DNA of 50,103 nt from Croceicoccus mobilis (lineage in GTDB: Bacteria > Pseudomonadota > Alphaproteobacteria > Sphingomonadales > Sphingomonadaceae), in contig NZ_LYWZ01000010.1 of the NCBI RefSeq assembly GCF_001661965.1, positions 1-50,103 on the forward strand, read 5' to 3'. Every line of letters starts with the position of its first letter. Position 1 is the stretch's first letter. Shown piece after piece: positions 8,735 to 29,048 of the stretch. A model generated the notes under the pieces. That model saw only the letters and a list, made by a program, of their open reading frames with translations. It made no database searches and was not told where the DNA came from. The position numbers and the translations under genes are program-made.

Positions 8735-8749
8735 GTAGGAATTTTCCTA
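8735..8749. promoter_or_regulatory. Palindromic operator candidate near the S24 repressor gene
   Basis: TAGGAA-TT-TTCCTA at 8736-8749 is a perfect palindrome 26 bp upstream of the S24 start codon. With the preceding base its left half reads GTAGGAA. The same half-site (GTAGGAAA or TTTCCTAC) recurs three times in the traA/HTH promoter region, which points to a shared regulator. Confidence 0.6.
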
Positions 8750-8762
8750 GACTCGCCGATAT

Positions 8763-8788
8763 GAACCTACTAAGAACATAACAAGAAC
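8763..8788. promoter_or_regulatory. Triple GAAC repeat: alphaproteobacterial SOS-box array
   Basis: GAAC occurs at 8763, 8774 and 8785, spaced exactly 11 bp apart, giving two overlapping GAAC-N7-GAAC units. On the minus strand this is GTTC-N7-GTTC, the known LexA box of Alphaproteobacteria. It lies between the S24 gene and the HTH gene at 8821 and probably overlaps one or both promoters. Host LexA or the S24 repressor could bind it. Confidence 0.75.
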
Positions 8789-8820
8789 ACAAGGGATTTG
8801 CGAGTCGGAGCGAAAGGGTC

Positions 8821-9129
8821 ATGACCTTGCTGGAACGGATCGAAAAGTATCTGAAAGATCGTCATATTTCGGCGACACGCTTCGGTAGGCGGGCAGTCGG
8901 TGATCCTCGATTCGTACTCGACCTCAGGCAAGGGCGTAAGCCGCGCCGCAGAACCCTCGAGCGGCTGGAAGCGTATCTACAGTCGGTTGAGAGTACCGAT
9001 CCCGACTGCATCAAGAGTGAGGGTGAGTGCGCTCGCCAAGCTGATAATAGCGACCTGCAACATCCTGCCAGAGTTTTGCCCCGTCGAGCTCGCCGGCCTG
9101 GCTTAGCTGATCGATCTTCGACGCAATGA
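8821..9129 (+). CDS. Small helix-turn-helix protein
   Basis: This protein has up to 102 residues. Its first 60 residues look like a short DNA-binding domain (ATRFGRRAVGDPRFVLDL, then RKPRRRTLERLEAYL). Similar small proteins are common in sphingomonad mobile DNA. The last 40 residues are low in pattern and rich in Arg, and may be poorly conserved. It is divergent from the S24 repressor and shares its operator region, so it could play a Cro-like opposing role. That role is inference. Confidence 0.65.
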   Translation: MTLLERIEKYLKDRHISATRFGRRAVGDPRFVLDLRQGRKPRRRTLERLEAYLQSVESTDPDCIKSEGECARQADNSDLQHPARVLPRRARRPGLADRSSTQ

Positions 9130-9254
9130 ATTTTCGGGTCTGCAGGCCAAGACAGCGTTCTCGCTTTCGAGATGCTTCTTGGCTATTTTCTCAGCGATGC
9201 GTTGAGATGATTTAGAGGGGAGAGGGCCGATTTACCCCCGAAGGAGAATGAGCC

Positions 9255-9464
9255 ATGAGCGATCCAGACAAGAATCCCACTGGTGGCAAGCAGGACTGGG
9301 AAGGTCTTCGTGAAGTCGACCGGGCCATCGCCGAGAATCGTCTCACTTCCTACACCTGGAAAAAGACTTGGGCTGACCCTTGGGGACGGCTCAAGTTGAT
9401 TGTGATTTTTGCTGCATTGGCAGCTTTTGTCGTGTTCGTAATTGTGCACGACGTCATCCTTTAG
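9255..9464 (+). CDS. Small single-pass membrane protein
   Basis: This 69-residue protein has a soluble N-terminus (about 45 residues) and one C-terminal membrane helix (LKLIVIFAALAAFVVFVIVHDVIL). A ribosome site AAGGAG at 9241-9246 precedes the ATG with good spacing. It converges with traG, whose stop lies 5 bp away. I do not recognise a family. Its place at the end of the transfer operon suggests an accessory conjugation or entry-exclusion role, which is a guess. Confidence 0.6.
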   Translation: MSDPDKNPTGGKQDWEGLREVDRAIAENRLTSYTWKKTWADPWGRLKLIVIFAALAAFVVFVIVHDVIL

Positions 9465-9468
9465 CATC

Positions 9469-12171
9469 CTACCATTCCTTCACATCGTCCGCCGCTTCGG
9501 CAGAGGCTCCCTTCGCATCGCGGGTCTTGCCATCGAGGTAGCCTTTCACGGTCCCGATCCGTCGATCTCCCTGTTGCTGCACCCGATCGACATCGCGGGC
9601 GATGTCTTCACGTTCGCTGGACGGGGCGTTCAGGCTTCCCGGCACACCGCTAAGCCGCACTGATCCCCGGACGCTCTCGGCGCTGCTCACTGAGGGCCGA
9701 GCGATGGACGCAGAGGCCGGCAAAACCAGGTCGCCCGAGATCTCGTCGTTGAGCCGGTCCGCATAGCCTTCGACGAACCGTGCCTGGAGCTGCTGGCCCC
9801 GCGCGCTCATCTGGAAGTCGATGTCGTCAAAGCGGACCGGGCCGTAGTAGTCCCGGTTAGCCTCGATCTCCGCCATGCCCCATTCGCGATAGGCCTGGCT
9901 GAGGTTGAGAGTGCCTGCGGCATTGGCACTTTCGTACCAGCTTGCCTGGTTCTCGAGCCGGCTGGCGATCTCTTCGGCGCGGCGCGCTTCGCGTGTGTAG
10001 CTCTGCGCTTCGGTGATCGAAGTCGAGATCCCCGCCGAGCTGCTGGACACCAGCGCTTCGGAGCTTGAGCTTGTCTCACGCAAGAAGCCCTCGCGCGTGC
10101 TCGACCAGCTACGGCTGTCCGAGATCTGGCGCAGCGCTCCCATGATGCGCGAGCGGTCTTCTGAAGCGATCCCGATATCGCTATCGGTCCAGCTCTGGTT
10201 GCGTCCTCCCTTAACACCTATGCTCGCCGAGCCAGCGCCTTTTTCTCCCTTCAGTCCTAGAGCGCCATCCCCGTTCAAGAACCAGGATACGGTGATGTCA
10301 TCGGCCGCGCGGCGCGAAAGCCCGAATTGCTGCTGGAGTGTCTTCGAGGCGTTGTCGACTTCGCTGAAGGCGCTGCCGATGCTGTCGCTCGTTGACGTGC
10401 CACTGACGCTCTCGTTCGAGCGCGAGCGGGTGTAGGCATCGCGCAACTCGCTGAAGCGGGTGACAGCCGAACTCGTTGATTGCTGGGCAAGGTTCGAGAA
10501 TGTCTCGCTCTGGCCGCGGCTCTGGCTAGCCATGGTCGCAAGCCGGCTCGAGAAGTCCTGCCCGAGTGTCGGGGTAAACGGATAGCTCGAGGTCGGCACG
10601 GTGGCGAATTCGGCTTGAGCGAAGCCGGTGGTCTGGGTGCCGTTTTCGCCCGTGGCTCGCGTCTGCGCGGCGCCGTAGCCAATGTTGGGCGCGAGGCTGG
10701 CTTGCGCAAACTGGCGCGAAAACACGTTCGAGTTCTCAAGGCTGGAATTGCCGAGCGAAACATTGCCGGTGCTCGCTTCGCGCGCCGCCTCTTCTGCCGC
10801 GTTCTGGCTCGGATTGAGGTAGCTCGTTGCCTGGCCCGATATTGCGAGCGCGCCCCTGGCGACGCCGCCTGCAAGGAACGGTATCGATGCAACGAGATAA
10901 CCGGCCAGGATCCCGATATCGTTGTTGACGTCGGTCATGCCGGAGAAGGTCGCGAGGCTGAGACCGGTTGCGCCGCCCGCTGCCGCCACATCGCTCGCGC
11001 CCTTGAGCATCAGGATCATGTGCAGGATGACGAACAGCGGCCCCCAGGCTGCCAGATAGAAGAAGCCCGTGACGTATCCTCTGAGTGCGATCGGTCCGGT
11101 CTTGGGCATCAGGAACAGCGGGAAGAGCACCGGAAAGAGCGCGTAGAATACGACCGTCAGGACGACATTGAGGATCGGGACCCACTTCATCGCGTTATGC
11201 GCGATCGAGGAATAGGTCCGTTCGGTCTGGATATCGGCGCGGGTCTGCGCGAACACATCGACGCTCGATGCGCCGCTTGCTCCGGCGAAGCCATGCATCG
11301 CCTGGTTCATGGCGTTGATGGTCAGAACCTGGCGGAAGATGCTGCTTGCATCCTTCGAGACTCCTGTGAGGTACTGATAGGCAATCGGCAGGTCGGCAAT
11401 GAGCTTGGCCGTCGCGAGCGCTTCGGTCTCCCGGGGGTAGAGCTGGCGCCCGGCGACCTGCGTCATCTCATCGATAAGCCCGGCCCATTGGCTGGAGAGC
11501 GCAGTGTATGCTTCGCGGCAGGTGATGATCGTGGCCGTGACGCTATCATCCGCCTGCCGGGTTACGAAGCGCTGTGCACGCGCGGCACTGCCGGGCGCAA
11601 TCGTCGCCCAGATATCGTTGCTCTCTGACAGCTCTTTCATCGAGTAGCGGCCTAGGAGCAGGTCGTAAAACACGCATTGCCGGATATGCTCATCGAAATT
11701 GGCGGCAAATTCCGGATCGGCAATGCGCAGCGAGCGTGTCGCCTCAAGCAGACGAGCGCCATAAATCATGCCGTTCTTCGAATAGTTGAGATCGTCGGGA
11801 AGGCCGAAGACGAGCTCTGCGGAACGGGTTAGATAGTCGCCCGCCTGGCTGGTAAAGCTTGCCATGAGCGCTAGGCCCAGCGGGACATTGGCGACCGTGG
11901 CCGGTGCAAGGCTCGGATTGACGCGGTCGGTGACCTGCACATCCATGCGCGGCACCATCAGGCACATGTAGATGAGCGTCGCGCCGAGGAACCAGTTGAG
12001 CCAGGCGCGCCAGTCCTGGTTGAACGCGACGACAATGACCGCAAGCGCCATCCCCATGACCAATGCCACCTGGATCAGGCTCTTGTAGCCACCGGCCCCG
12101 GTCCACGCGGCGACGGCGTTCAAGACATTGACGATGTATTCGCCGCCGCCGGTGGTGAAGATCTCGACCAT
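9469..12171 (-). CDS. traG: Mating-pair stabilisation / pilus assembly protein TraG
   Basis: This roughly 900-residue inner-membrane protein is the TraG of F-type systems. Its N-terminal half is needed for pilus assembly, and its periplasmic C-terminal half stabilises mating pairs. The N-terminal region (MVEIFTTGGGEYIVNVLNAVAAW) and several membrane helices up to about residue 440 match the TraG_N domain. The rest is Ser/Ala/Gln-rich and likely coiled. I chose the ATG at 12171 because it lies 10 bp after the traH stop, whereas the longer frame to 12261 runs into traH. It is the last gene of the operon. Confidence 0.92.
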   Translation of the reverse strand: MVEIFTTGGGEYIVNVLNAVAAWTGAGGYKSLIQVALVMGMALAVIVVAFNQDWRAWLNWFLGATLIYMCLMVPRMDVQVTDRVNPSLAPATVANVPLGLALMASFTSQAGDYLTRSAELVFGLPDDLNYSKNGMIYGARLLEATRSLRIADPEFAANFDEHIRQCVFYDLLLGRYSMKELSESNDIWATIAPGSAARAQRFVTRQADDSVTATIITCREAYTALSSQWAGLIDEMTQVAGRQLYPRETEALATAKLIADLPIAYQYLTGVSKDASSIFRQVLTINAMNQAMHGFAGASGASSVDVFAQTRADIQTERTYSSIAHNAMKWVPILNVVLTVVFYALFPVLFPLFLMPKTGPIALRGYVTGFFYLAAWGPLFVILHMILMLKGASDVAAAGGATGLSLATFSGMTDVNNDIGILAGYLVASIPFLAGGVARGALAISGQATSYLNPSQNAAEEAAREASTGNVSLGNSSLENSNVFSRQFAQASLAPNIGYGAAQTRATGENGTQTTGFAQAEFATVPTSSYPFTPTLGQDFSSRLATMASQSRGQSETFSNLAQQSTSSAVTRFSELRDAYTRSRSNESVSGTSTSDSIGSAFSEVDNASKTLQQQFGLSRRAADDITVSWFLNGDGALGLKGEKGAGSASIGVKGGRNQSWTDSDIGIASEDRSRIMGALRQISDSRSWSSTREGFLRETSSSSEALVSSSSAGISTSITEAQSYTREARRAEEIASRLENQASWYESANAAGTLNLSQAYREWGMAEIEANRDYYGPVRFDDIDFQMSARGQQLQARFVEGYADRLNDEISGDLVLPASASIARPSVSSAESVRGSVRLSGVPGSLNAPSSEREDIARDVDRVQQQGDRRIGTVKGYLDGKTRDAKGASAEAADDVKEW

Positions 12172-12181
12172 GGTGCCCGCC

Positions 12182-13618
12182 TCAGGGGACGATCGAGCGC
12201 GACTGGAGTCCGCGCGACCAGTCGAGCGCGGCGGACATCGAAGGCGACATCGAGGCGGCAAGCGCGTTCTCGATCATCGCGGTCTTCTCGATGATCTGCA
12301 TGATCGCGGAGACCTTGGCCTGTCCGGTTGCCTGCCGCTGGACGAGGCCAGAGCGCACCTCGGCGACCTGGCCACGCCAGATTGCGAGCTTGGCTTCGTC
12401 GGCGGCGATGAAGCTTGCCATCGAGCGACCGGCTTCCGAGACGATCCGGTCGAGGATGGCATAGAGCAGGTCGATGCTAGCGATCTCAGCGAGCGTGTCA
12501 CGGTCGTCGGTCGGCATTCCGCGCCCATAGGCGGCCTGGACGGTAAGGATCTTGTAGAGCGGCACCGAGGCAACCTGCAGCAGTTCCTTTTCGGCATTGC
12601 CGATCGCGGTGTCGGTGCGGATTGCATCAACCATATTGCCGATAAGCAGCGCCACACGTGGGCGTATGGCCTTCGCATTCGATAGGCTCATCTGCTCGAA
12701 GGTGGGATTGAGGCAAAGATCGGTCTCGTCGCAGCGAAAAACGCGCACGGTCTGGCCCTGCGTCCCGTCTAGGAGCGCGCTTACGAGCGTCGAGGACGCG
12801 TCGCCCGAGAACGGCACGAACTTGCCTGCCTCGTCATCCTTGGGCGGCACGTAGATGACCGTGCCAATCAGCGTCATGGCGTATTCTGCAAGCTCGCGGT
12901 CGAAAGTGCCGCCGGGATTGAAGAAGGCGCTCTTTTTCAGGACGTGCCAGGTGTAGTTGCGCGCGACGCCGGGATTGACGTCAGCATAGTCGGTGCCGGC
13001 GCTGTCGTTGGTTGAAGCGCGTTGTCCGCGTGTGCCGCAGCCATGCTTGGCTGCGGCGTAATCCGTGAAGATCCCTTCCGAATTGCCGATCGCCTCGCAG
13101 ATTGCCTTGTCGGCCAGATCGCCCTTGGGCCAGATGCCGCCGACCAGCCCTTGCGCCATTTCACACGAGTTGATCGACAGATTGTTCATGAGCTGAGCCT
13201 TTTGGCTGAACTCCTGCATGATCTTGTTGCACTCGGGGCAGACGGTATCGATCGCCAGGCTGAAGGCGAACCCGACCGCGTTGTTAGCAACCGCCTTCAT
13301 GAGCGCGACCATCTCGCTCGCATTGATGAAGGAAAAGGACCCCGCAAAGATGTCGATCCCGCCGCAGCCCGCCCTTGCGCGCGGCAGCTGGAGATTGGCG
13401 ATATTGGTGGTCTTCTGCGGGAAGCGTGTCCAGACATTGCCGAGGCTGTAATAGCCCGCCGATTGACCTTCGAAGGCGGTCGGGCCGGTGACATTCGCCG
13501 CCGCGCCCATATCGTCAATGAAGCGGTCCATGCTGTCGCCAACATTCGCTGCGACAGGTGAGCCGACCAAACTGGTGGCGGCGAGGGTCAATGCCGCATT
13601 GCGGATGCTAGTAATCAT
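12182..13618 (-). CDS. traH: Conjugal transfer pilus assembly protein TraH
   Basis: This 478-residue periplasmic/outer-membrane-associated protein is required for F-pilus assembly, working with TraF, TraW, TraU and TrbB. The signal peptide (MITSIRNAALTLAATSLVGSPVAA) and the body (FEGQSAGYYSLGN, RFPQKTTNIANLQLPRARAG, CGGIDIFAGSFSFIN) are typical. The ATG at 13618 directly precedes the signal peptide and overlaps the traF end by 11 bp. The longer frame to 13681 is not needed. Confidence 0.94.
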   Translation of the reverse strand: MITSIRNAALTLAATSLVGSPVAANVGDSMDRFIDDMGAAANVTGPTAFEGQSAGYYSLGNVWTRFPQKTTNIANLQLPRARAGCGGIDIFAGSFSFINASEMVALMKAVANNAVGFAFSLAIDTVCPECNKIMQEFSQKAQLMNNLSINSCEMAQGLVGGIWPKGDLADKAICEAIGNSEGIFTDYAAAKHGCGTRGQRASTNDSAGTDYADVNPGVARNYTWHVLKKSAFFNPGGTFDRELAEYAMTLIGTVIYVPPKDDEAGKFVPFSGDASSTLVSALLDGTQGQTVRVFRCDETDLCLNPTFEQMSLSNAKAIRPRVALLIGNMVDAIRTDTAIGNAEKELLQVASVPLYKILTVQAAYGRGMPTDDRDTLAEIASIDLLYAILDRIVSEAGRSMASFIAADEAKLAIWRGQVAEVRSGLVQRQATGQAKVSAIMQIIEKTAMIENALAASMSPSMSAALDWSRGLQSRSIVP

Positions 13619-14420
13619 GTCCTGCTTCCTTGGAGGTGAGAAGGTAGATGCGGTCCTGGAGTTCGTCGGCCGAGAGCACACCGTAACCGATCGGGATCGG
13701 GCGTTTGGTCACGCTGTCCCACAGCACCAGAGCGGGGGTGGCTTTGCCTTCGAGACCAAGCTTGCCGCGCTGGTTTGTCTCGACCCGATAGTCGGGAAAA
13801 TGCCGGGATGGACCGCCATCGGTGGAGATCGCGCGCACGGTGATCCGCCAGCGGTCGGCGACGCCCTTCACGATCGGGCTCATCACTTCGCACGGTCCGC
13901 AGGTCGAACTGAAGAAATAGAAAAGGCCGTAGCGCTGCGAGAGCGTTGCCATGACGTGATCGCGCTCCGCGCTGCGGGCATCCTGCCACTGCTTCTTGGC
14001 GACCGCTCCGACGGGGCGTTCAAGCGTGTAGTCGAGGTCCGGGTCCTGCCAGATCGCCCGCTGCCAGACATCGGAGAACAGCGAGGCGCGGTCGAGCTGC
14101 GCGCGCTGGAAGCGGATATAGGCCGCTACATTGGCCTCGGTCGGATAGAGGATCGCGCGCGCCTTGAGTTCGCGAAGCTCGGAGGTGATCGCGTCGAGTT
14201 CCTGCGTTGCCGCGACCTGCTCGGCTTCAGGCTGTTGTGGCTCTTCAATGGGAGCGGGCTTCACGCAGTAGAACCAGTAGCCGAGCCTGCGCTCTTCGCA
14301 GTAGAGCGCGTCTGCCGAGGTGGTCGATCTTGTGTCCCGCCGCTCCTGCGCCTGGGCCAGAGTGGCGGGCAGGGCAGCGATGCCGAGCGCGAGCGCCGTG
14401 AGGTGATGCAGATGGGTCAT
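13608..14420 (-). CDS. traF: Conjugal transfer protein TraF, thioredoxin-like
   Basis: This 270-residue periplasmic protein has a signal peptide (first 25 residues) and a thioredoxin fold. TraF acts in pilus assembly and supports folding of Cys-rich partners. F-plasmid TraF lacks the active pair, but here CGPC is present at 174-177, so this copy may be redox-active like TrbB. A second Cys pair is near residues 41-52. The ATG overlaps the traN stop in ATGA. Confidence 0.9.
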   Translation of the reverse strand: MTHLHHLTALALGIAALPATLAQAQERRDTRSTTSADALYCEERRLGYWFYCVKPAPIEEPQQPEAEQVAATQELDAITSELRELKARAILYPTEANVAAYIRFQRAQLDRASLFSDVWQRAIWQDPDLDYTLERPVGAVAKKQWQDARSAERDHVMATLSQRYGLFYFFSSTCGPCEVMSPIVKGVADRWRITVRAISTDGGPSRHFPDYRVETNQRGKLGLEGKATPALVLWDSVTKRPIPIGYGVLSADELQDRIYLLTSKEAGHDY

Positions 14421-16138
14421 TGGCCGCCCCTTGCGTAGTAGTCTTCGATCTTCTGCTGGATGAGGATGGAGGTCTCGAGTTCGTCGGGAAGTCGGGCCGC
14501 GTCGGTGAACTCGGCATAGACTTCGCTGAAATCCATCCGGCTGAGGTCGAGCCGGGCAAACTCGTCGAGAGTGAACCCCTCACATTGTTCTTCTTTGGGC
14601 TTGTCCCATGGCTTGGGGAGCTGCTTGCGGCCCTGTTCCTGCAGGATCCGCGACAGCTTGCTCTCGAAGCAGCAGTAGACCTTCTTCTTGGTGAGGCAGA
14701 CGCCGAGGAACTTGTCCGAACAATAGGTCCCCACATAGGCGCACAGCCCCTGCGCATCGCGCTGGTGGAGTAGCACTTCCTCGCGATCGCAGCCGAGCGC
14801 AACCAGCAGGCTGATCCCCGGAATGAGCGGGAAACCCTTACCCTTGCAGCAGTTGAGCACGCCGAAGACCTTGGACGAGCAGGTGTTGCGCGTGCCGCGG
14901 AACAGTGTCAGCGTGTTCGGATCGAACTGGCCGCGCGCCTCGTCCATGGCGTGCAATGCGACCGCCGCATCCTTGAACTCGTCATTGGCGGTGCGCTCGA
15001 TCGTCTCGCAGCTGCCATCGATGCAATAGACATCGCCGTCGCAGACATACTGGGTGGAGCTGTCCGTACCGGGCAGGGGACATTCGTAGATGCGCTCCCA
15101 GGTCTCGCAGGGCGTCTCGTCGGTGAGGCATTCCTCGCCGATGAACCGGCAGGTGCCCTGGCTTTCGATGTCCGAACAGTCGGTCGCCGCATCGCGCGAT
15201 GTGCAGGTGTAGCTACGCTGCCATTCCCAGCAGGGCCGCGTAACCGAGACACCGTCGATCACCCGTGTCTGCGGATCGGCATCGGTGCAGATCTCGGTAT
15301 CGAGCGTACAGTCGCCATTATCGGCAAATCCGGTGCACTGGCTCTCGTCGGAAAAGGTATCGATCGAGTTGTCCGTGGTCACCGCATAGGGCGTGTAGCG
15401 CGCATCTGGAGTGTCGCATGTGATTTCGGCGATGGGGTCGCCAGGTTCGGTGCAGTATCTGTAGAACTGGTCCTGCCGCCACTGGAGGCAGGGGCCGGGC
15501 CGATACCCCGTGATCCGGCACGAGCCTCCATCGAATGCCGAGCACCAGGGATATCCATAGACTGTGCTCGTCTCATTGCAGAGATAGTGCCATTGCTGGC
15601 GCCGGGTCACGCTGGCAACGAGCGGCACCGCGCACTGACCCACCGACTGGTCGATCCGCGTGCCGGTGTTGCAGGTCGCAGTATAGGTTCCCGCCGCGCT
15701 CGAGCCGGGCGGCAGCGGGACACAATTGCCCTGGCCGCCGGAGATATCCATGCCACTGGTATAGTCGAGCGGGGTCTCGTTGATGGCGAGGCTGCGCGCG
15801 ATGACGTCCTCGATCTCGCTTGGATCGAAGCGCGCGCGATTGGCCACGCTTTCGCGCATTGCCCGATAGCCCTGGTGTCCGGAGGCTGCCGCTGTCGCAT
15901 TGCTCTCGATCCGGTCGGGGTCGCCGGCGAGCGATTCGAGGTTTTGCACGGCGTCGCGGTCGTAATTGGGCAGGTTTGCTGCATTGGGCTGCGATCTGGC
16001 AGCTTCTTGCGCTTCGCCGCGCAGGCTTTGGCCAAAGGCCTTGCCATCGGCACGCGCGTCCTGCTGCTGCGCGGAAAGGGGCGCGGCGACGGCGAGAAGA
16101 CCGAGCAGTCCTATGCGAAGCGATTGTATGAGCCTCAT
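14417..16138 (-). CDS. traN: Mating-pair stabilisation protein TraN
   Basis: This 573-residue outer-membrane adhesin contacts the recipient surface during conjugation. A signal peptide occupies about residues 1-24. The mature protein is unusually rich in Cys, with many repeated C-x(n)-C segments between residues about 135 and 510, as TraN proteins are. These disulfides probably depend on the DsbC-like and TraF proteins of the same operon. It overlaps both trbC and traF by four bases. Confidence 0.92.
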   Translation of the reverse strand: MRLIQSLRIGLLGLLAVAAPLSAQQQDARADGKAFGQSLRGEAQEAARSQPNAANLPNYDRDAVQNLESLAGDPDRIESNATAAASGHQGYRAMRESVANRARFDPSEIEDVIARSLAINETPLDYTSGMDISGGQGNCVPLPPGSSAAGTYTATCNTGTRIDQSVGQCAVPLVASVTRRQQWHYLCNETSTVYGYPWCSAFDGGSCRITGYRPGPCLQWRQDQFYRYCTEPGDPIAEITCDTPDARYTPYAVTTDNSIDTFSDESQCTGFADNGDCTLDTEICTDADPQTRVIDGVSVTRPCWEWQRSYTCTSRDAATDCSDIESQGTCRFIGEECLTDETPCETWERIYECPLPGTDSSTQYVCDGDVYCIDGSCETIERTANDEFKDAAVALHAMDEARGQFDPNTLTLFRGTRNTCSSKVFGVLNCCKGKGFPLIPGISLLVALGCDREEVLLHQRDAQGLCAYVGTYCSDKFLGVCLTKKKVYCCFESKLSRILQEQGRKQLPKPWDKPKEEQCEGFTLDEFARLDLSRMDFSEVYAEFTDAARLPDELETSILIQQKIEDYYARGGQ

Positions 16139-16890
16139 GGCCGTTCTCCTTCGAGCCTGCGGGAATGGAGGCGCGCGAGCTGCGCTCCCGGACCGCCTCC
16201 CGAAGCGAAGGTGTCAAGCACTTCGGCCACGCTGATATTGCCGGCAATGCGGTCGTGCGGCGGCAAGACGTCTTTGCAGTCGAACCCGTCGCAGGGGCTG
16301 AAATCGCTTGCGATCATCACGAAGCTCGGGGCAACCTTGATATCGAAGGCGCGGAACAGGCGCGGGTCGATCCCGAGCGCGCCGGCATCATCGCTATCGC
16401 TCCAGATGGCGGCGATGCGTTTCTTGAAGCTCGAGCTGTCGCCTTGCGGGAAACCGCGCAGTACGGTGACGCCGCCGGCCCTTGAGACATCGCGAACCAG
16501 CGCCTTCAATGAGGGCTCGGGCATTGCCAATGAGGCAAAAGCGATGAACCGGGGCGTGTCGCCCATCGCTGCCACTTCCGCGTCGGCCTGGGCGCGGATC
16601 ATGCCATCGAGATCGAGCGGCCCGGCATTCGCGGTCGCCTGCGCAGTCTCGGCATAGGCTGCGCGATTGTCGAAAGCCGTTTGCTGAGCGGCGCGCGCGT
16701 CTTCTGCGAGGGCATCCGCTTTTGTCCTGACCGATGTGGCGAGAGCCTCGGCGTCGGCGGCATGTTCGGCCGCGCGTGCGCGGATCTCAGCGAGGTCAAG
16801 ATCGGGCCCGGCATCCTGCGCCGAAGCGGCGGCAAATCCGGCAGCGATCACGAGGCTCAGGCCAACGAGTATGGGGAAAGCGTTTCTCAT
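16135..16890 (-). CDS. trbC: F-type pilus assembly protein TrbC
   Basis: This 251-residue periplasmic protein forms a complex with TraW and is needed for pilus assembly. The signal peptide is MRNAFPILVGLSLVIAAGFA, followed by an Ala-rich helical stretch (about 30-95). The conserved thioredoxin-like TrbC domain (FIAFASLAMPEPSLKALVRD, later FDIKVAPSFVM) comes next. The ATG at 16890 gives the signal peptide and overlaps the traU stop by four bases. The longer frame to 17376 is traU shadow. Confidence 0.92.
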   Translation of the reverse strand: MRNAFPILVGLSLVIAAGFAAASAQDAGPDLDLAEIRARAAEHAADAEALATSVRTKADALAEDARAAQQTAFDNRAAYAETAQATANAGPLDLDGMIRAQADAEVAAMGDTPRFIAFASLAMPEPSLKALVRDVSRAGGVTVLRGFPQGDSSSFKKRIAAIWSDSDDAGALGIDPRLFRAFDIKVAPSFVMIASDFSPCDGFDCKDVLPPHDRIAGNISVAEVLDTFASGGGPGAQLARLHSRRLEGERP

Positions 16891-19812: not shown

Positions 19813-22358
19813 ATGCCTCCTTCCACACCTGCGACCAGCGCGACTGCGCGCTCCAGCGGCATGCCGTTTTCGACATGGCGGTGGATTGCGGCATAGGTGT
19901 CAGGATCGGAGGAGAAGATGGTTGCCGAGAGTGGGTCGAGCACCAGGCGTCCAACGGCTTCCATCTCGGGACCTTTGAGGTAGATCTCGCTGTACTCGGT
20001 GCCCGAGCGCTTGAGGCTGCGGATCAGCGTCTCGGTCCGGTCGTCCATGTCGAGCCGGGCCTCCTTGCGGAAATCGGCGATGGTCTCGGGCTTCTGCTGG
20101 AGCACCAGCATCCAGTCGCTATTCTCGAGCGCGGCCCGCGCGCCATCGGACTTGTAATAGTCGTTCAAGGACTGGGTGGCGGTCGCAAGCGCGCCGCCAT
20201 ACTTGCGCGCGGTGCGGGCATAGGTCTCGACGAACTCGCCCATCGAACCGCCCCTGAGCATCGCCCAGGCCTCGTCGATCAGCAGCAGCTTCTTGGTCGA
20301 GCGCGACGAGCGCGTCATCGCCTGACCGGTCATGAACATGATTGCCGAGAGGACAACGCTTCGAAGCTCCTCGCGGGACGCGAGGTCGCTCATCTCGAAG
20401 ACAGTGAAATCGTCTTCGAGCGCGAAACTCGCTTTCCCCGAGAAGAACCCGGCATAGCTGCCACCGCGGCAGAAGGGCGCGATCGCTGTGGCTAGGTCCT
20501 TGCCCGCCTCGTTCTCGCTCTGATGGAGCGCATGCGCGACGTCGTCGATCGCGCCCCCGCTGCCGAGCGCATTCCAGACCTGTGTTACTGCACGATCGAT
20601 GAGGCCGCGTTCGGTGTCAGAGGGCGCGGCGCTTGGCCGCGCCATCTGGCCGACGATCGCCTTGATCATCGCAAAGCAGTCGAGCCGGTAATCCTCGTCT
20701 TGATGCGCCCTTGCATCGTCGACCATCGAGAACGGGTTGAGCGAGAATCCCGAGGCGAGCGTGAACTCGACAAAGCGGCCGCCCTGAAGTTTGATCGAGT
20801 GCTCGAAACTCCGGCCGTCATCGATCACCACGACCTTGGCGCCAGCGCCGCGCAGCGCGGCGCATAGCTCCTGCAGCAGCACCGACTTGCCCGAGCCCGA
20901 CTTCCCGCAAATCGCGATGTTGTGGTTGCCCGCCTTGTTCTCGAAGGGCGACCAGAAGAAGGGCTGGCCGCGCCGTCCGAGCAGCAGCAGGTGCGGGATC
21001 GTGCCGCCGAGATACTCGCCCTGCAGGGGGGCGATATTGGCCGCGGTGGTCGAGAGCATGGTTCGAAAGCGTTTGAGCCGCGCAAGGTCGTGGACCAGAC
21101 CATCGGCGAGGCTCAACGGGAACGAGGCGACGAGGCCCTGGAGCTGGAGGAAGCGCTCGTCGGCAAGGTCCCATCCGGCCGCCTTGTAAATCGCCTTGAC
21201 CGTGCGCTCATGCGCATCGCCTTCGCCGAGCGGCGAGATCGTGGTGAGACCATAGAACAGCTTGACGAGCTTCTTGCCCGCTTGGAGTTCGGCCTGGACG
21301 TGTCTCCATTCTGCCGACTGCTCCGACAGTTTGGGCAGGAAGCGCGCGCTTTTGGTCTCCGACAGGCTGGTGGTGCGCATGAACTTGTAGCCTGCGCGCG
21401 CCGAGGCGGCTTCCTGGTCGGGATAATGCAGGCACAGCATGGTCGCAGCCGGGCAGGGAAAGCGCAGCTTGTCGGTGAACATGTCGCCGATGAGCCGCGC
21501 GCATTCCCACGGTGCCCAGCGCTCAGGGGTAGAGCGCACGCCGTAATGGCGCATATCGAAGCGGTCGGGATAGCATTCACCTACCTGCGGCACGCCATCT
21601 CGCGAGCGCCCGGTCTCGCGGAAGCGCTCGGTGCGCAAGATCAGCCGGTCGTCCTCGACTTCGAGTTCGATGTCGCGGCGGATCGCTTGCGCGTCGAGCG
21701 TGTCCTCGCGGTTCCAGTGGGTGAGATCGGGTTCGCGCGCGGTGGTCGGCGAGGTGAGCTCGTCGACCAGTGCGAGGAGGCCTGCGGGCTCGAGCCTGTT
21801 CGATGCAAGGCCGAGCGAGTTCAGCATCCCCGACATCCCGTCGCGGCATTCGGTGAGTTCTGCATCGGTGACGCTTCCGGGCACCGGAACGCCGAGCGAG
21901 AGCACCAGACGCACATGGCGTGCATGAAACGGCGCGTGTGCCGAGCCCGACTTCCAGACGAGATCGTAGAGCCGGTTGGTGCGGGCTTTCGCAATCGCTT
22001 CGTAGATCCCGCCCTGCTCGTAGCGCGGTGCGAACCACGGGCCGACGATGGCGCCGATGCGCGGGGACGCGAAGTTCAGCACTTGGAGGCAGGCGCCTTG
22101 CGGCAGGCTCTCGGAAAAGAACTGGCCGAGGATCTCACCTGTCCGCTCGTCGGCGCCGATGAGCGGGGTGACTTCGAGAATGAAGCCCTTCGAGTGCGCG
22201 TTGCGGTAGAGCCCCGGGCCCTCGTCATAGACTCGGTACGGAAGCCAGTCCGACAGCATGTCGAGCGCGAAACGCGGCTGCGCATGATCGCCCCTTTTCG
22301 CATCGCCGAACAGGCCAGCGAGAAGCGCGTCGCGCGCAGAGGATAGCGAGAGGTTCAC
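19809..22358 (-). CDS. traC: T4SS ATPase TraC (VirB4 family)
   Basis: This 849-residue cytoplasmic ATPase powers pilus assembly at the inner membrane. The N-terminal TraC_F_IV domain is followed by a RecA-like motor with Walker A GKSGSGKS (485-492) and Walker B LLLIDEAWAML (about residue 690). The conserved TATQSLNDYY segment follows. Length and motifs match F TraC. The start overlaps the traV stop in ATGA and lies 28 bp after a GC-rich hairpin. Confidence 0.96.
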   Translation of the reverse strand: MNLSLSSARDALLAGLFGDAKRGDHAQPRFALDMLSDWLPYRVYDEGPGLYRNAHSKGFILEVTPLIGADERTGEILGQFFSESLPQGACLQVLNFASPRIGAIVGPWFAPRYEQGGIYEAIAKARTNRLYDLVWKSGSAHAPFHARHVRLVLSLGVPVPGSVTDAELTECRDGMSGMLNSLGLASNRLEPAGLLALVDELTSPTTAREPDLTHWNREDTLDAQAIRRDIELEVEDDRLILRTERFRETGRSRDGVPQVGECYPDRFDMRHYGVRSTPERWAPWECARLIGDMFTDKLRFPCPAATMLCLHYPDQEAASARAGYKFMRTTSLSETKSARFLPKLSEQSAEWRHVQAELQAGKKLVKLFYGLTTISPLGEGDAHERTVKAIYKAAGWDLADERFLQLQGLVASFPLSLADGLVHDLARLKRFRTMLSTTAANIAPLQGEYLGGTIPHLLLLGRRGQPFFWSPFENKAGNHNIAICGKSGSGKSVLLQELCAALRGAGAKVVVIDDGRSFEHSIKLQGGRFVEFTLASGFSLNPFSMVDDARAHQDEDYRLDCFAMIKAIVGQMARPSAAPSDTERGLIDRAVTQVWNALGSGGAIDDVAHALHQSENEAGKDLATAIAPFCRGGSYAGFFSGKASFALEDDFTVFEMSDLASREELRSVVLSAIMFMTGQAMTRSSRSTKKLLLIDEAWAMLRGGSMGEFVETYARTARKYGGALATATQSLNDYYKSDGARAALENSDWMLVLQQKPETIADFRKEARLDMDDRTETLIRSLKRSGTEYSEIYLKGPEMEAVGRLVLDPLSATIFSSDPDTYAAIHRHVENGMPLERAVALVAGVEGGM

Positions 22359-22939
22359 TTGGGCTCTCCTTCGGGCAGAACGGGGTGGGGCACCTGGCCG
22401 GGGGAGGGGGGACGACCAGGTGCCCCGGGGTCCGGCGCTTTGGCGCCGGGCAGCTCCGTCAGATCCTGCGAGGGGATGACCAGGACATCGGGAGGCTGCT
22501 GGGGGGACGGATTGGAAAGCTGAAAAGGAATTGCTTCTGCGGCGGCGGGCGGGGCGACTTCTGCTTCAGCCGGACGCGCCAGTGCGCGAAGCACGTCGCC
22601 GGTCGAACGCGGCGCGCGCCAGCGCTCGGCAGCGCGATCGGGCAGCACGACATGAACAACCCGGGCCTCGTGGATGTGGCCCGTCCCGTCGCGGTAGCCC
22701 GCAACAACGATCCGCAATCCGCGATCACCGGCCCTGTGCGCTCCCGCAGAGGCATGACCGGACCGTTCTGCCTGTGAAACGCGGGTCGCGGTATCGTCGA
22801 TCATCGAGGTCGGCGCGCAGCTTCCCTCCGGTGCCCGGCAGGAAAAGTCGCCCTTGACGTTGCCGCCAAGCGTCGCACAGCCGGCGATCATCAACGCGAG
22901 AATTGCCGTCGCTCCGACACGGGTCGCACCGCCGCTCAT
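22355..22939 (-). CDS. traV: Outer-membrane lipoprotein TraV (VirB7-like)
   Basis: This 194-residue lipoprotein has signal and lipobox LMIAGC (lipidated C21), then LGGNVKGDFSCRAPEGSC, the TraV signature with its two further Cys. TraV forms the outer-membrane core with TraK and TraB. The C-terminal 60 residues are Pro-rich and variable. It overlaps traC and the dsbC-like gene by four bases each. Confidence 0.9.
   Translation of the reverse strand: MSGGATRVGATAILALMIAGCATLGGNVKGDFSCRAPEGSCAPTSMIDDTATRVSQAERSGHASAGAHRAGDRGLRIVVAGYRDGTGHIHEARVVHVVLPDRAAERWRAPRSTGDVLRALARPAEAEVAPPAAAEAIPFQLSNPSPQQPPDVLVIPSQDLTELPGAKAPDPGAPGRPPSPGQVPHPVLPEGEPK
22387..22426. repeat. 11-bp inverted repeat at the traV-traC junction
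   Basis: GGGGCACCTGG (22387-22397) and CCAGGTGCCCC (22416-22426) are perfect complements around an 18-base GC-rich loop. The repeat lies in the Pro/Gly-rich 3' end of traV, 28 bases before the traC start in the mRNA. It could stabilise mRNA ends or control traC translation by coupling to traV. Confidence 0.55.
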
Positions 22940-23814
22940 TGCTTCGATCCGGTCTTGGCATTGGCAAAGGCGCGCAGTGTCTTTGCATCACGGTAGCCGT
23001 GCAGCACCGCACCGTCGCGCGCCCGGACGATTACCGGGGTTCCGGCAAAGCCGTTGGCCTGTGCAAAGGCTTCGTTGGCATCGAGCGCAGCTGCTTTCTT
23101 GCAGGCGGCGCGCGGTTCGAGGTGCTTGCCGGTATAGGCGGCATGGAGCGCCCCGATCGGATCGGCGGCGCAGAGCACCGCCTCGGACCTGCGCCGGCTC
23201 GATGCGCCGAAGATCGAGATCGGCCGTTCCTCTACAAGAACGCCTGCCTTCTCGAGTTCGCCGGTGAGCCGCTTACAGTAGCCGCACTGGAAATCCGAGA
23301 AGACAACCAGCTTCGGCCCCTTGGGATTGCCCCACAGGATCGCGCCTTCCTTGGGAAGGGCTTTGAGATCGACATGCGTCGCGACCTGCCTGTCGCGGGT
23401 TTCGGCAACGTCATGGCGCCCTCCAGTGTCCTCGCCGGCGTGGCGGGCTGCGCCGGCGGCGAGCAGGTCGGGGTTGAGTTCGAGCAGGCGCGCGGCAGTC
23501 ACGTCGCGCCGCTCCTCCATGTCGTAGAGCCGCCCGACGAAGAGGTAGCGTGCCGCTTCGTCGATGTAGAACAGCGTCTCTCCCGAGACGACCTCGCACC
23601 ATGGCGCGAATGTCGTGCAATCGAGCGCGTCGATCGGCGTTCTGGGCAGACGAAGCTTGAGCGCTTCAACCACATCTCGCGTGATCGCGGCCTGCGCGGG
23701 CATGGCGGTTACGATCGCGACGCCGCTTGTAAGGAGGGCTGCTGCGCTGGCGGCGGCGAGCGATATGTGCGCGGCGCGCGCCTTGAGGCCGGGCCGCTGG
23801 TTCGAGTAGTTCAT
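22936..23814 (-). CDS. DsbC-like disulfide isomerase of the transfer operon
   Basis: This 292-residue protein has an N-terminal signal or anchor (about 20-42), a DsbC-type dimerisation domain (TTFAPWCEVVSGETLFYID) and a thioredoxin domain with CGYC at 177-180 (FSDFQCGYCKRL). The C-terminal FAGTPVIV carries the cis-proline. It should correct disulfides in Cys-rich partners such as TraN, TraU and TraH. The same gene placement near traB/traV occurs in SXT/R391-type operons. Confidence 0.9.
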   Translation of the reverse strand: MNYSNQRPGLKARAAHISLAAASAAALLTSGVAIVTAMPAQAAITRDVVEALKLRLPRTPIDALDCTTFAPWCEVVSGETLFYIDEAARYLFVGRLYDMEERRDVTAARLLELNPDLLAAGAARHAGEDTGGRHDVAETRDRQVATHVDLKALPKEGAILWGNPKGPKLVVFSDFQCGYCKRLTGELEKAGVLVEERPISIFGASSRRRSEAVLCAADPIGALHAAYTGKHLEPRAACKKAAALDANEAFAQANGFAGTPVIVRARDGAVLHGYRDAKTLRAFANAKTGSKQ

Positions 23815-25094
23815 TGGGGTGTGCTCCTGACATGGACGCCGTCGAGAAAGACGATCTCGACTGCGATGCCGGTCGGCATCTCGACGACGGGTTGGTACTG
23901 TTCTGCGCGTTCGATGAGGTATTTGCTGACGGTGTCGGCGGCTTCGCCCGCGCCCTGGCCCAGGCCGCCTGCGAGGATGTCGGTCGGCGAGAGCGCGTCG
24001 CGCTTGCCGTCGCTGCCGACAGGCTGCGCAAAGATGCCGTTGGCATTGGCCGAGAAGCCGCGGCCGAAGCCGCCGACGATTCCGGCGAGCAGCGCCTGGC
24101 TGACGAGGCTGCCTTCGCGGCTGACGACATTGCCGCGCACGCCCGACTTGCCGGCGAAGGCGATGAATCCCTTCACTTCGCTCACCGCGAAGCGTCCGCC
24201 GGGCTGCGCACAGGTCATGCGCACGAGCTTGACGTAAACCTTCTCGGCCGAGAGATCGCCTCGCGCCGCGCCGTTGACGAGGCAGCCGGTGAGATCGGTG
24301 GTGAGGAGCTTGTTGCCCTGCAGCACCGAGCGCGCCGGACCGGTGATCCGCAGCACCACGGGCAGCGGATCGCTCTGGCTGGTGACCCCGGTCGAGGCGT
24401 CGACCCCGACGATTACGGTGGCAGGTGCATAGCTGTTGGGCGGCAGGTAATCGCGGCTTGCCTCGAGCAGCAGCGCCGGCGCGCTTTCGGTTGCCTTGGC
24501 CTTGGCGGTGCCCGGCTTGTCGTTTGAGAAGCTCAGCAGGCTTGCCTTGGGTTCGCTGGGTGGCTCGAGCGGTCCGGGAGCGAAGCCCGGAGCCCGCGGA
24601 TCGACTGCGGCCACCGGCGCAACTGGGGGATTGGTGCGGACGGTTTCGAGTTCCGAGCGCAAGGCAGCGTTCTCCGCCGAGATCGCATCGATCGCAGCTT
24701 GCCCGTCGCTCAGCATCCGCGCGTTCTCGCCCCGCAGCGTTTCGAGCTCCTGCTCGATCGAAGCCCTGGGAAGCTGGGTCTCCTGCAGGTCCTTGATCGC
24801 CTTGCCCTGCGCATCGAGGCGGTTGCCGTAAGTGGCGACGAATTCGCGCTGCGAGAGATTGCGATTGACCAGCGCGCCGGTCTCGATCGTGGTTGCGCCC
24901 GCGCCGTCGGCGCTCGCTTCATCCTCGCCGCCGAAGATGAACATCGAACCGGCGATGAGCGCCACGCCGCCGATCCCGGCAAGCAACAGCTTCTGGCGCT
25001 GCGCGACCGTGCGGTTGAGATCGCGCCGGGCTTCGCCGCGCGTCTCGTCCTTTGGCGCTGCCGCGGGCGTATAGCTTGTGTCGGTATCGGCCAT
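23811..25094 (-). CDS. traB: Conjugal transfer protein TraB (VirB10-like)
   Basis: This 427-residue protein spans both membranes in the T4SS core. It has a short cytoplasmic N-terminus, one membrane helix (about 36-54), a coiled coil (about 85-150), a Pro-rich stretch and a C-terminal beta domain with YAPATVIVGVDAS and PTGIAVEIVFLDGV. It overlaps traK by one base (TAATG) and the dsbC-like gene by four. Confidence 0.94.
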   Translation of the reverse strand: MADTDTSYTPAAAPKDETRGEARRDLNRTVAQRQKLLLAGIGGVALIAGSMFIFGGEDEASADGAGATTIETGALVNRNLSQREFVATYGNRLDAQGKAIKDLQETQLPRASIEQELETLRGENARMLSDGQAAIDAISAENAALRSELETVRTNPPVAPVAAVDPRAPGFAPGPLEPPSEPKASLLSFSNDKPGTAKAKATESAPALLLEASRDYLPPNSYAPATVIVGVDASTGVTSQSDPLPVVLRITGPARSVLQGNKLLTTDLTGCLVNGAARGDLSAEKVYVKLVRMTCAQPGGRFAVSEVKGFIAFAGKSGVRGNVVSREGSLVSQALLAGIVGGFGRGFSANANGIFAQPVGSDGKRDALSPTDILAGGLGQGAGEAADTVSKYLIERAEQYQPVVEMPTGIAVEIVFLDGVHVRSTPQ

Positions 25095-25849
25095 TATTTG
25101 AGCCCTCCCTTGGTAAAGACAAGGAAGGCTTGCGTGCTCTCGCCGGGCTCGAGGGAGTTGCGGCCATAGGCAAAGGCCAGCGCCCCGGCGGGCGCCTCGC
25201 GCTCACCGGCAAGGTCGACGAGTGCCGGGCCAAGATTACGGAGAGTAAAGGCTTGGCCGATCAGTTCGGCGCCTTCGTATTCCGCGACCTGCTGCACTTC
25301 GAGGCTGTCGGTGTGGCGTGGTCGCGAAAGTTCGGCACGGGCGCGGAAGCCCGGCAGGACCCCATCGCTGGCCATCGCTTCGATCAGCCGGATCGCGGCC
25401 TCGTCGCGCGTCACTGCTGCGCCTTCCCATTCACTCGCCTGGGATTTGGCGAGCGCGGGATTGGTGACGAAGAGCTGGCTCGCTTCCTCGCCTTCGACGC
25501 GGCAGGTGAACTTGTAGACATAGCCCGCGCTGCTCGTCGCGAAGAAGCTGACCTTGGCGCTCGCATATTGCAGCGGCACCGAGACATAGATGTCGCCGCG
25601 CACCGGCTCGTGGGTCACCTCGAAATCGTTGTAGGGAAAACCGCTCGCCATCTTCGAGACATTGGCGAAACCGTCCTCGATGAGGGCGATACGGGTCAGC
25701 GCGCCGCGCGCGAGCACGCAGTCGATCGCGGCGCCATCAGCGGCCTCGACGAACTGGTCGGCATGTGCCGGTGAAGCGTAGGCGGCCGTGGCGATTGCCA
25801 GCGCAACGCTGGTCAGCGCGGCGGGGAAGGGGCGGGATAGGAGTGTCAT
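25094..25849 (-). CDS. traK: Conjugal transfer secretin-like protein TraK (VirB9-like)
   Basis: This 251-residue periplasmic/outer-membrane protein has a signal peptide ending near ASPAHA (residue 30). The beta-rich body ends in GQAFTLRNLGPALVDL and the C-terminal motif GRNSLEPGESTQAFLV. TraK binds TraB and TraV in the outer-membrane core. It overlaps traE by four bases. Confidence 0.92.
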   Translation of the reverse strand: MTLLSRPFPAALTSVALAIATAAYASPAHADQFVEAADGAAIDCVLARGALTRIALIEDGFANVSKMASGFPYNDFEVTHEPVRGDIYVSVPLQYASAKVSFFATSSAGYVYKFTCRVEGEEASQLFVTNPALAKSQASEWEGAAVTRDEAAIRLIEAMASDGVLPGFRARAELSRPRHTDSLEVQQVAEYEGAELIGQAFTLRNLGPALVDLAGEREAPAGALAFAYGRNSLEPGESTQAFLVFTKGGLK

Positions 25850-26415
25850 GGGTTCTCCTCCTCGTTTTCGGTTGGGAGCTGGCGGAAGCCGGTGAGGCCG
25901 AGACTGAGGCCGCGGCGGTTCCAGCTGAATTCGAAGCTGCGCTCTTGGCTTGCGATCACCTGCGCACCGACGAAGGTCTTGAGCGTGCCGGTGACGACAG
26001 CGGTGAGCGCCTGCGCGTCGACCTCCATCCGCGAGATGACGAAGGCCTGGCTGATGTCCGAACCGCGCTGCTCGTCGACGATCTTGACGAGCTCGGCCTT
26101 GAGGCTCCCGTGCGCTGACGGATCTGCCACCTTGAGGACCTGTTCCATCCAGTAGTCGAGGCTCTCGGGTGCGCGATTGAGCAGCATGAGCGCGGTGTCG
26201 CGGGTTACGAGTTCGAGGTAGTGCGCATCGGTACCGCCGCTCCCGAGCGTCAGGCGCTCGGTCGTGACAGGCACCAAAATGACGCTTTCCTCGCGCGTCG
26301 CCGCCGCGCCGACCGCCAGCAGGCTGGTAAGGCCCAGCACGGCTGACAGCGCGGCGAAGCGGTTGCGCTGTTTGAGGTGACGCTGCGCTTCCTCATAGGC
26401 GAATTCGTGTTTCAC
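25846..26415 (-). CDS. traE: Conjugal transfer protein TraE (VirB5/8-like)
   Basis: This 189-residue inner-membrane protein has one N-terminal membrane helix (about 21-40) and a periplasmic domain containing SGGTDAHYLELVTRDTALMLLNRAPESLDYW, typical of TraE. It is required for F-pilus assembly. It lies 12 bp after traL and overlaps traK by four bases. Confidence 0.93.
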   Translation of the reverse strand: MKHEFAYEEAQRHLKQRNRFAALSAVLGLTSLLAVGAAATREESVILVPVTTERLTLGSGGTDAHYLELVTRDTALMLLNRAPESLDYWMEQVLKVADPSAHGSLKAELVKIVDEQRGSDISQAFVISRMEVDAQALTAVVTGTLKTFVGAQVIASQERSFEFSWNRRGLSLGLTGFRQLPTENEEENP

Positions 26416-26427
26416 TTGGGTCCTCCC

Positions 26428-26715
26428 TCAGCCTGCGAGCAGGCGGCAGTGGGAGGGCGGCGTGGCTTTCAGCCCGAGGAAGCTCCCCGGCAGATACCAG
26501 TAGGCAGCATGGACCAGTTTCGACCCTGCGCCTGATGCCTTCGCCTTTCGAAGGGCGAACCAGGTCATGACCGATAGGCCGGTGCCGATGATGATGTGCT
26601 GCGAAAGGATGCCCCACGCGAAGGGGACGAGCAGTCCCGCAAACTCGTCGATGGTCCAGAAGCCGATGAGCTCCGGGTCGTCGAGCCGCCGTGGAACGAG
26701 GTATCTGTCGGCCAT
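26428..26715 (-). CDS. traL: Conjugal transfer protein TraL (VirB3-like)
   Basis: This 95-residue protein has the TraL signature RYLVPRRLDDPELIGFWTIDE and two membrane helices (about 22-60). TraL anchors early pilus assembly in the inner membrane. It lies 26 bp downstream of traA and 12 bp upstream of traE. Confidence 0.92.
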   Translation of the reverse strand: MADRYLVPRRLDDPELIGFWTIDEFAGLLVPFAWGILSQHIIIGTGLSVMTWFALRKAKASGAGSKLVHAAYWYLPGSFLGLKATPPSHCRLLAG

Positions 26716-26741
26716 GCCGCCCTCCCGTCGTTAGACCGCGA

Positions 26742-27068
26742 TCAAATGGTTGCGGTCACGACCGAGGTGACGATCGGCACGCCTGTGCCGACGCCAATTC
26801 CGACACCGACCGGGACCGCGACCTGCCCAAGGGCGAAGCGGCCCGAGGCGAGCGCGATCAAACCGCCGGCAAGGCTGAGGACGGTGATGATCTTGCCGCC
26901 CGAACCTTCGAGGAAGTCAGTGAACTTCTGCAGCGCCGGATCAAAGGTCGTGTCGGCACCGGCATAGGCGGCACCGGCGCAGGCGACCGCAATCGCGGCC
27001 GGAAGAATATAGTCGCGGGCACGAATGCCTTTGACGGATGGGCGGGGAAGGGTGATTGCATTGTTCAT
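26742..27068 (-). CDS. traA: F-type pilin TraA
   Basis: This 108-residue propilin has a long leader ending near AGAAYAGADTT, so mature pilin is about 68 residues. Two hydrophobic helices (IITVLSLAGGLIALASG and a Gly/Val-rich C-terminal segment) suit a pilin subunit. The ATG at 27068 is preceded by GGAG at good spacing. The longer frame to 27245 is not needed. It is the first gene of the transfer operon, and an exact SOS box lies 35 bp upstream. Confidence 0.88.
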   Translation of the reverse strand: MNNAITLPRPSVKGIRARDYILPAAIAVACAGAAYAGADTTFDPALQKFTDFLEGSGGKIITVLSLAGGLIALASGRFALGQVAVPVGVGIGVGTGVPIVTSVVTATI

Positions 27069-27102
27069 CGAGGAACTCCGTTTCGAACATTGGCAGCGAT
27101 GC

Positions 27103-27117
27103 GTTCGCTGTATGTTC
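27103..27117. promoter_or_regulatory. GTTC-N7-GTTC box upstream of traA
   Basis: GTTCGCTGTATGTTC is an exact match to the alphaproteobacterial LexA box, 35 bp before the traA ATG. Read on the minus strand it overlaps a possible -10 (CATACA). GTAGGAAA lies 23 bp further upstream. Confidence 0.72.
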
Positions 27118-27331
27118 TTTCCTCGATTGGAAGGCAGGGTGTAGGAAAACGGAAACTGCCGCACGCGGCATTCCGACCAAGAGAAATCGTCGATTCTGGG
27201 CAATCTGACCGGGCTTTGCGCGACCGGTGCAGACATTGCGGCCAAGAATACCGATCATTGCGCCACCCATACCGAAATCTGAGATCGAGGGACCGGACTC
27301 TGCGCGAATCAAATCGTGTGACGATGAGCCA

Positions 27332-27372
27332 GTTTCCTACGAGTTCCTTATTTGTTCTTTTTCCTTTCCTAC
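27332..27372. promoter_or_regulatory. GTTC array flanked by two TTTCCTAC elements upstream of the HTH gene
   Basis: Exact GTTC copies at 27343 and 27354 are 11 bp apart. Near-copies GTTT (27332) and TTTC (27365) extend the same 11-bp phasing. TTTCCTAC at 27333 and 27365 are 32 bp apart, about three helical turns. The array sits just upstream of a candidate -35 element. Confidence 0.7.
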
Positions 27373-29040: not shown

Positions 29041-29048
29041 CACGCGCC

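Follow-up and report, generated by a model that had tools for sequence, protein, structure and literature searches.

Three promoter regions of a 50,103-nucleotide stretch of Croceicoccus mobilis DNA (the window, which is the entire contig C2 of its genome) carry exact GTTC-N7-GTTC boxes, the motif reported for LexA in Alphaproteobacteria (PMC8565304; PMC12907096): that of a cro-like gene facing an S24-peptidase repressor gene, that of traA at the head of an F-type type IV secretion system (T4SS) cluster, and that of an operon encoding a helix-turn-helix (HTH) regulator and an AlpA-family protein. We consider it probable, judging from sequence and conservation, that these boxes are operators of the host LexA at the cro, traA and HTH-alpA promoters of an F-type integrative and conjugative element (ICE) of marine alphaproteobacteria (Erythrobacteraceae), and that the window spans both the switch of this ICE and its transfer region. 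Since the boxes are kept at the switch, pilus and regulator operons in distant relatives, DNA damage probably switches on transfer. An original prediction, made from the letters of the window, had proposed SOS-type operators shared by these three promoters of a plasmid. Every motif it listed is present where it had been placed, and the sharing is borne out by conservation at traA (55 of 61 regions), HTH/alpA (52 of 61) and S24/cro (29 of 30).

LexA-type boxes at three promoters

The boxes, and the genes on the traA and HTH side, are as follows; start codons of all open reading frames (ORFs) are projections.

8763 to 8777, minus strand: overlapping GTTCTTAGTAGGTTC unit containing a third GAAC, present in 1/30 S24 loci and not conserved
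8774 to 8788, minus strand: LexA-type box GTTCTTGTTATGTTC, recognized by the matrix described below and identical to box C15:5539; a box is found in 29/30 S24 loci
27103 to 27117, plus strand: LexA-type box GTTCGCTGTATGTTC before traA
27343 to 27357, plus strand: LexA-type box GTTCCTTATTTGTTC before the HTH gene
9469 to 27068, minus strand: F-type T4SS gene cluster running leftward (Pfam: TraL, TraK, TrbI (TraB-like), TraC_F_IV, TraU, TraN, TraF, TraH, TraG_N)
26742 to 27068, minus strand: traA-type pilin gene, first of the cluster and next to traL (PF04956, E 7.1e-5, 23.4 bits, below the cut-off of 27.9)
27432 to 27893, plus strand: HTH regulator gene, 153 aa (PF13560, E 0.0016, below cut-off)
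27871 to 28161, plus strand: AlpA-family regulator gene, overlapping the HTH gene (PF05930, 2e-19)

The Pfam matches agree with the F-type assignment of the original prediction; among the cluster ORFs scanned, 17422-17928 and 22355-22939 had no Pfam match.

The window contains six exact GTTC-N7-GTTC units where 1.34 are expected, a count reached by none of 100 shuffles. Genome-wide the plain pattern is too unspecific (128 matches against 98 in the reversed control), and we therefore used the refined form GTTCN5WTGTTC (the strict box), which is specific (30 against 4); by our own assignment, 14 of these 30 strict boxes lie beside ICE genes. Beyond the window, another box is found at C21:255336. 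Conservation is, in our view, stronger evidence for the boxes than any count within the window.

A position matrix was built from 12 boxes elsewhere in the genome, which we took to lie outside ICEs: five with clear genes beside them, four with unclear ones (L102, L111, L113, L115) and three whose neighbors were outside the scan (L099, L110, L117). The neighbors of ten box loci were scanned with NCBIfam and Pfam; the clear ones encode LexA, RecA, UvrA (cut by the locus end), RmuC and a PA0069-family radical SAM protein, one further neighbor is a FixJ-like response regulator, and four loci showed no clear family. The window boxes match the motif at lexA (C3:192670), recA (C27:26622), uvrA and rmuC of the same genome, as expected of the alphaproteobacterial LexA type that had been claimed for them. 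In the matrix scan suggested by the original prediction, sites 27343 (23.2), 8774 (22.7), 27103 (16.0) and 8763 (15.0) rank as the four best of the window, and the plain boxes inside genes at 3400 and 32092 score 9.4 and 9.6. Leave-one-out scores of the 12 matrix boxes run from 12.3 to 22.6, and one of the 12, at the PA0069 gene, is identical to the window box at 8774. Forty random sequences with the dinucleotide frequencies of the window gave a mean of 0.25 sites at or above 16.0, with a maximum of two and a best score of 20.0.

Conservation was followed through the HTH protein, for which there are 64 matches in 48 of the 298 genomes compared, all from one family, covering 30 of its 96 sampled genera. 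Three partial matches (G156:C152, G058:C4 and G136:C1:3311935) were set aside, and the remaining 61 HTH/traA upstream regions, the window's own (L038) included, were tallied with one script; because related loci share ancestry, these 61 are not 61 independent events. The HTH-side box is present in 52 of them: all 13 with about 86% protein identity or more, 26 of the 27 with 44-60%, and 13 of the 21 with 32-43%. Counts for the traA-side box in the same three classes are 13, 25 and 17, and the lowest HTH-protein identity accompanying a box is 38% on the HTH side and 34% on the traA side. The 52 HTH-side boxes have 29 different spacers, each ending in T ahead of the second GTTC, and the traA-side boxes are mostly GTTCGCTGTATGTTC (35) or GTTCGCTGTGTGTTC (9), with eight on the other strand.

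An alignment of 14 divergent loci (48-56% identity) with reference L036 shows all eight GTTC positions invariant in both boxes, and the HTH-box spacer at 67.6% identity against 80% for the whole intergenic region. Its invariant 9-mers are GTTCGCTGT, TGTAGGAAA, TGTTCTTTT and TTTCCTACA. Three of the 61 regions stand outside this alignment: L053 is without a box, and in L051 and L061 traA was unrecognized and the box lies on the other strand. The traA-side boxes of L051 and L061 have spacers (TTTTTAT and TATTTAT) resembling that of the transglycosylase box described below, as if a different gene lay there.

Outside the window, contig C21 of the same genome carries box GTTCTATTTATGTTC (C21:255336) between a transglycosylase and a primase gene, with a copy of the 9-mer TTTCCTACA 7 bp away; box and 9-mer recur with the same spacing near a 302-304-aa gene in six other ICE copies (G130, G060, G054, G208, G251, G128). 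A further box, GTTCTTGACATGTTC, is found in identical form at C18:394158 and C1:11970, in two other elements, about 3 kb from relaxase genes.

The S24/cro switch and the TTTCCTACA element

The switch region is composed of the boxes at 8763 and 8774 and of the following features.

8075 to 8710, minus strand: S24-peptidase repressor gene, 211 aa (Pfam PF00717, 1e-18; Ala87-Gly88, Ser129, Lys167)
8736 to 8749, no strand: palindrome TAGGAA-TT-TTCCTA, candidate S24/Cro operator (AGGA-N2-5-TCCTAGAC in 29/30 S24 loci)
8821 to 9129, plus strand: divergent Cro-like HTH gene, 102 aa (PF13443, E 0.054, below cut-off), opposite S24 in 29/30 loci

Self-cleavage of such proteins is reported to require an Ala-Gly (or Cys-Gly) bond and a Ser-Lys dyad (PMC8565304). 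All 13 aligned S24 sequences (the window's and 12 relatives, with the host LexA alongside) share Ala87-Gly88, Ser129 and Lys167, so that the protein has the make-up of the SXT/R391 type, an HTH-S24 repressor with Ala-Gly and Ser-Lys. A LexA-type DNA-binding domain was matched in the host LexA and not in S24, and a search of S24 against solved structures gave no match at E 0.01.

The S24 tally covers 30 matches having loci, the window included. Operator and box overlap as CCTA-TA-GAAC in 28 of these loci; the overlap is absent from L078 and from L079, a broken S24 copy with neither box nor palindrome. By eye, the box at 8774-8788 directly follows a candidate cro -10 at 8768-8773. Three GAAC copies phased at 11 bp had been described at 8763-8788; they are there, but the third, at 8763, is confined to the window among the 30 loci, and we have dropped the tandem reading. 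Two S24 paralogs of the same genome, on C18 and on C1, combine a box (on C1 the weak-looking GTTCCCGTTGCGTTC) with paired TAGGAA/TTCCTA elements; the intergenic region of the C13 paralog has no box, and a strict box (C13:103293, L096) lies inside the neighboring Cro-like gene.

The second motif of the original prediction, TTCCTAC/GTAGGAA, does occur at all three regions, and is better written as TTTCCTACA. Its copies beside traA and the HTH gene are these.

27140 to 27148, minus strand: TTTCCTACA reading towards traA; invariant 9-mer of the divergent alignment, with the traA-side TTTCCTAC in 50/61 regions
27333 to 27340, plus strand: TTTCCTAC, the upstream one of two copies at the HTH promoter, retained chiefly in the closest elements
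27365 to 27373, plus strand: TTTCCTACA at the HTH promoter, with the HTH-side TTTCCTAC in 58/61 regions

The copy at 27365 is thus more widely kept than that at 27333. TTCCTAC occurs five times in the window against 1.96 expected, including a copy at 9347 inside a gene; as two of 100 shuffles also reach five, this count is weak taken alone. TTTCCTACA is found 16 times genome-wide against six for the reversed control, and eight of the 16 lie by position in or near ICE regions (C2:27140 and 27365; C12:232992 and 233202; C21:255358, 269415 and 278403; C18:393009). All five tRNA-Met elements read have it ahead of an 817-aa gene that neighbors the relaxase gene and is traD-like by its position. At C21:278403 (L164) the longer TTTTCCTACACCCC stands upstream of the 817-aa gene, as it does in four of these five elements; the fifth has TTTTCCTACACCCC or a match one base shorter.

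By eye, the step from TTCCTA to a hexamer starting with TA is usually 17 bp at the HTH, transglycosylase and traD-like genes and 18 bp at cro; no such hexamer is visible at the traA promoter, and the host lexA promoter carries TTGACG instead. A -35-like or activator site peculiar to these elements is one possible reading of TTTCCTACA, S24/Cro half-sites another. The view that S24 binds TTCCTAC as a simple site has become doubtful, since the motif extends to TTTCCTACA, marks the traD-like promoter as well and often keeps a spacing to the hexamer that makes a role as activator site or -35 equally likely.

The element, its relatives and its cargo

The description of the window as plasmid DNA is not supported. 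Searches of a plasmid collection gave one short match to the window DNA and none to the HTH protein, which turned attention to chromosomal ICEs, and the relatives read are ICEs of this kind, linked to tRNA genes. Homologs of the HTH protein and S24 sit on large chromosomal contigs, about 20 kb apart from S24 to HTH gene in the closest relatives. Among the matches listed, at least 12 loci bear names, from Erythrobacter, Aurantiacibacter, Porphyrobacter, Qipengyuania, Croceicoccus, Altererythrobacter, Alteriqipengyuania and Citromicrobium, together with three metagenome bins under broader or other names. ICE context was read in six relatives and in C21: the tRNA is tRNA-Met(CAT) in G130, G060, G054, G208 and C21, and tRNA-Leu(CAG) in G251 and G128. 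A phage-type integrase adjoins the tRNA and a TrwC-type relaxase lies deeper inside the element; the integrase beside tRNA-Met-CAT that marks the tRNA-linked ICEs of Erythrobacter is found in the first five.

Contig C2 is bounded on the left by an IS21-type element and on the right by a transposase pair that we label IS3 type; a tRNA search of the window found none, and the ends of its own element are not visible within C2. C21, which bears tRNA-Met, an integrase, the transglycosylase gene, a CHC2/Toprim primase gene and a relaxase, would be the missing left part.

Several other genes appear to be cargo. Beside the S24 gene, 6751-7074 matches CapH (4.8e-32) and 7074-7982 matches CapP (1.1e-67). 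A CapH-like repressor with a CapP-like M78 protease is a pair known to sense DNA damage; single-stranded DNA reportedly activates CapP, and CapP cleaves CapH (PMC13373217). The stretch 2422-6314 encodes a 196-aa patatin-domain protein, a 744-aa E2-ThiF-JAB fusion and a protein of 371 aa whose PADLOC matches (RTasMBL, LmuA) are weak, and is a candidate ubiquitin-like defense operon. As the CapH/CapP pair lies opposite this operon, the cargo beside S24 may carry a damage switch of its own, a second sensor. On the other side, 28209-46786 encodes MerR, DUF3703, a 1118-aa ORF (38572-41928) and an FTR1-domain protein, with up to 100% identity to ICE regions in G130 and G208, which indicates recent exchange.

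Control of transfer: alternatives, mechanism and known systems

Several observations weigh against LexA control. The HTH-side box is missing in nine of the 61 regions and the traA-side box in six; L053, L194 and L203 have neither box nor element, and L181, L190 and L193 are without the traA-side box. Six loci (L197-L202) keep the HTH-side TTTCCTAC with no LexA-type box there, and the second HTH/traA locus of the same genome (L190, on C12) has a box on the HTH side but none on the traA side. Invariance was seen in an alignment that did not include the box-less L053, nor L051 and L061. The exact-match search fixes the halves of the boxes in advance, and it is their recurrence at fixed places that counts as evidence; the near-fixed spacer of the traA box might be due to a different constraint. 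At genome density 0.36 strict boxes would be expected in the window, where three are present (Poisson P 0.006), which is modest evidence alone. The two plasmid relatives of S24 that were checked, L131 (56% identity) and L132 (50%), have no box in the 260 bp upstream, and the promoter of the traD-like gene has TTTCCTACA and no LexA-type box within 400 bp.

That the repeats are due to chance, or are kept for promoter or coding reasons unconnected with LexA, seems to us highly improbable. The plain pattern is indeed barely enriched genome-wide, and a 239-aa plus-strand ORF (26691-27410) overlaps two boxes, but the HTH-side boxes combine both halves with their many different spacers, and only 11 of 354 offsets in the divergent alignment have eight invariant positions, the HTH box showing the lowest spacer identity among these. 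Control on the plan of SetR, the repressor of SXT, with S24 as the only SOS sensor, itself binding the GTTC repeats and host LexA uninvolved, would agree with the self-cleavage residues of S24 and with a GAAC repeat that abuts the S24/cro operator region. We consider it unlikely, as the boxes score high on a matrix drawn from lexA, recA, uvrA and other genome boxes, the LexA-type domain is matched in the host protein and not in S24, and 29 of 30 S24/cro regions have their own palindrome, of the shape expected for an XRE-type dimer.

Compatible with LexA control, and along the lines of the original prediction, is the possibility, which we consider tentative, that TTTCCTACA is an S24/Cro operator half-site, through which S24 would extend direct repression to traA, HTH-alpA, the traD-like gene and the transglycosylase/primase promoters. 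S24/cro regions hold the same hexamer as inverted pairs, and TTTCCTACA is found at several ICE promoters; at these targets, however, it is a sense-oriented, non-palindromic 9-mer, standing 17-18 bp before the TA-starting hexamer at HTH, transglycosylase, traD-like and cro in most sequences read by eye, as a -35 or activator site would.

Returning to LexA control, we infer binding, repression, induction by damage and a role for TTTCCTACA from the motifs and their positions, their conservation, their match to the SOS boxes of the host, the self-cleavage residues and the ICE context of the relatives. In an undamaged cell LexA would occupy the cro, traA, HTH-alpA and, on C21, transglycosylase/primase promoters, while the S24 repressor of the element would hold the S24/cro promoter at its palindrome, TAGGAA-TT-TTCCTA. 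The formation of RecA filaments would lead both LexA and S24 to cleave themselves; the HTH-alpA and pilus operons would then be freed together with the cro-like gene, and transfer would start. TTTCCTACA would act as a second, element-specific promoter signal, be it read by an HTH/AlpA activator, as S24/Cro half-sites or as an unusual -35. A more speculative extension is a two-key SOS lock of LexA and RecA-cleavable S24, in which the released HTH/AlpA would be a new ICE activator reading TTTCCTACA as a -35-overlapping site and turning on the traA, traD-like/relaxase and transglycosylase/primase operons, a plan that could be common to several ICE lineages in the family sampled.

SXT/R391 ICEs integrate in prfC, whereas the relatives of the present element lie at tRNA-Met or tRNA-Leu genes; here, moreover, LexA-type boxes stand directly on transfer promoters and an HTH and AlpA operon adjoins traA. 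SetR of SXT is reported to be cleaved under RecA and to repress setCD (PMC4542580; PMC4344509). Shared with the systems described there are an HTH-S24 (CI-like) repressor, paired operators, a Cro-like gene in an opposed transcript, residence of a conjugative ICE in the chromosome and an SOS link via RecA (PMC4542580; PMC4344509). The SetR comparison of the original prediction fits the S24/cro part; an activator of the FlhC type (SetC; PF05280) was found in none of six genomes, with a positive E. coli control and with FlhD outside the search.

The part given to LexA has a precedent in SGI1: LexA is reported to bind its sgaDC promoter, which is induced in the SOS response, with sgiAT negative, and the master activator of this integrative mobile element is under direct repression by the host LexA (PMC9927553). 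SGI1 is, however, mobilized by IncC plasmids and LexA binding is reported at one activator promoter (PMC9927553), whereas the present element has its own tra genes, with boxes before the regulator and T4SS operons as well as at the switch. In Erythrobacter, 14 ICEs are reported in 8 of 14 genomes, in three groups by tRNA, one with heavy-metal genes (PMC4919336); the main text of that paper describes no control circuit and does not mention "LexA", "SOS" or "repressor". Among the papers listed in searches of an open-licence library, no title or opening of an abstract described a LexA-controlled ICE in Alphaproteobacteria.

What is best known of SOS control in ICEs is the action of element-borne repressors such as SetR and, for SGI1, of LexA at one activator. 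The conservation found here suggests a direct use of host LexA at the transfer machinery as well as at the regulator operon and the switch; if this is true, DNA damage would raise the transfer of metal-carrying ICEs in these bacteria.
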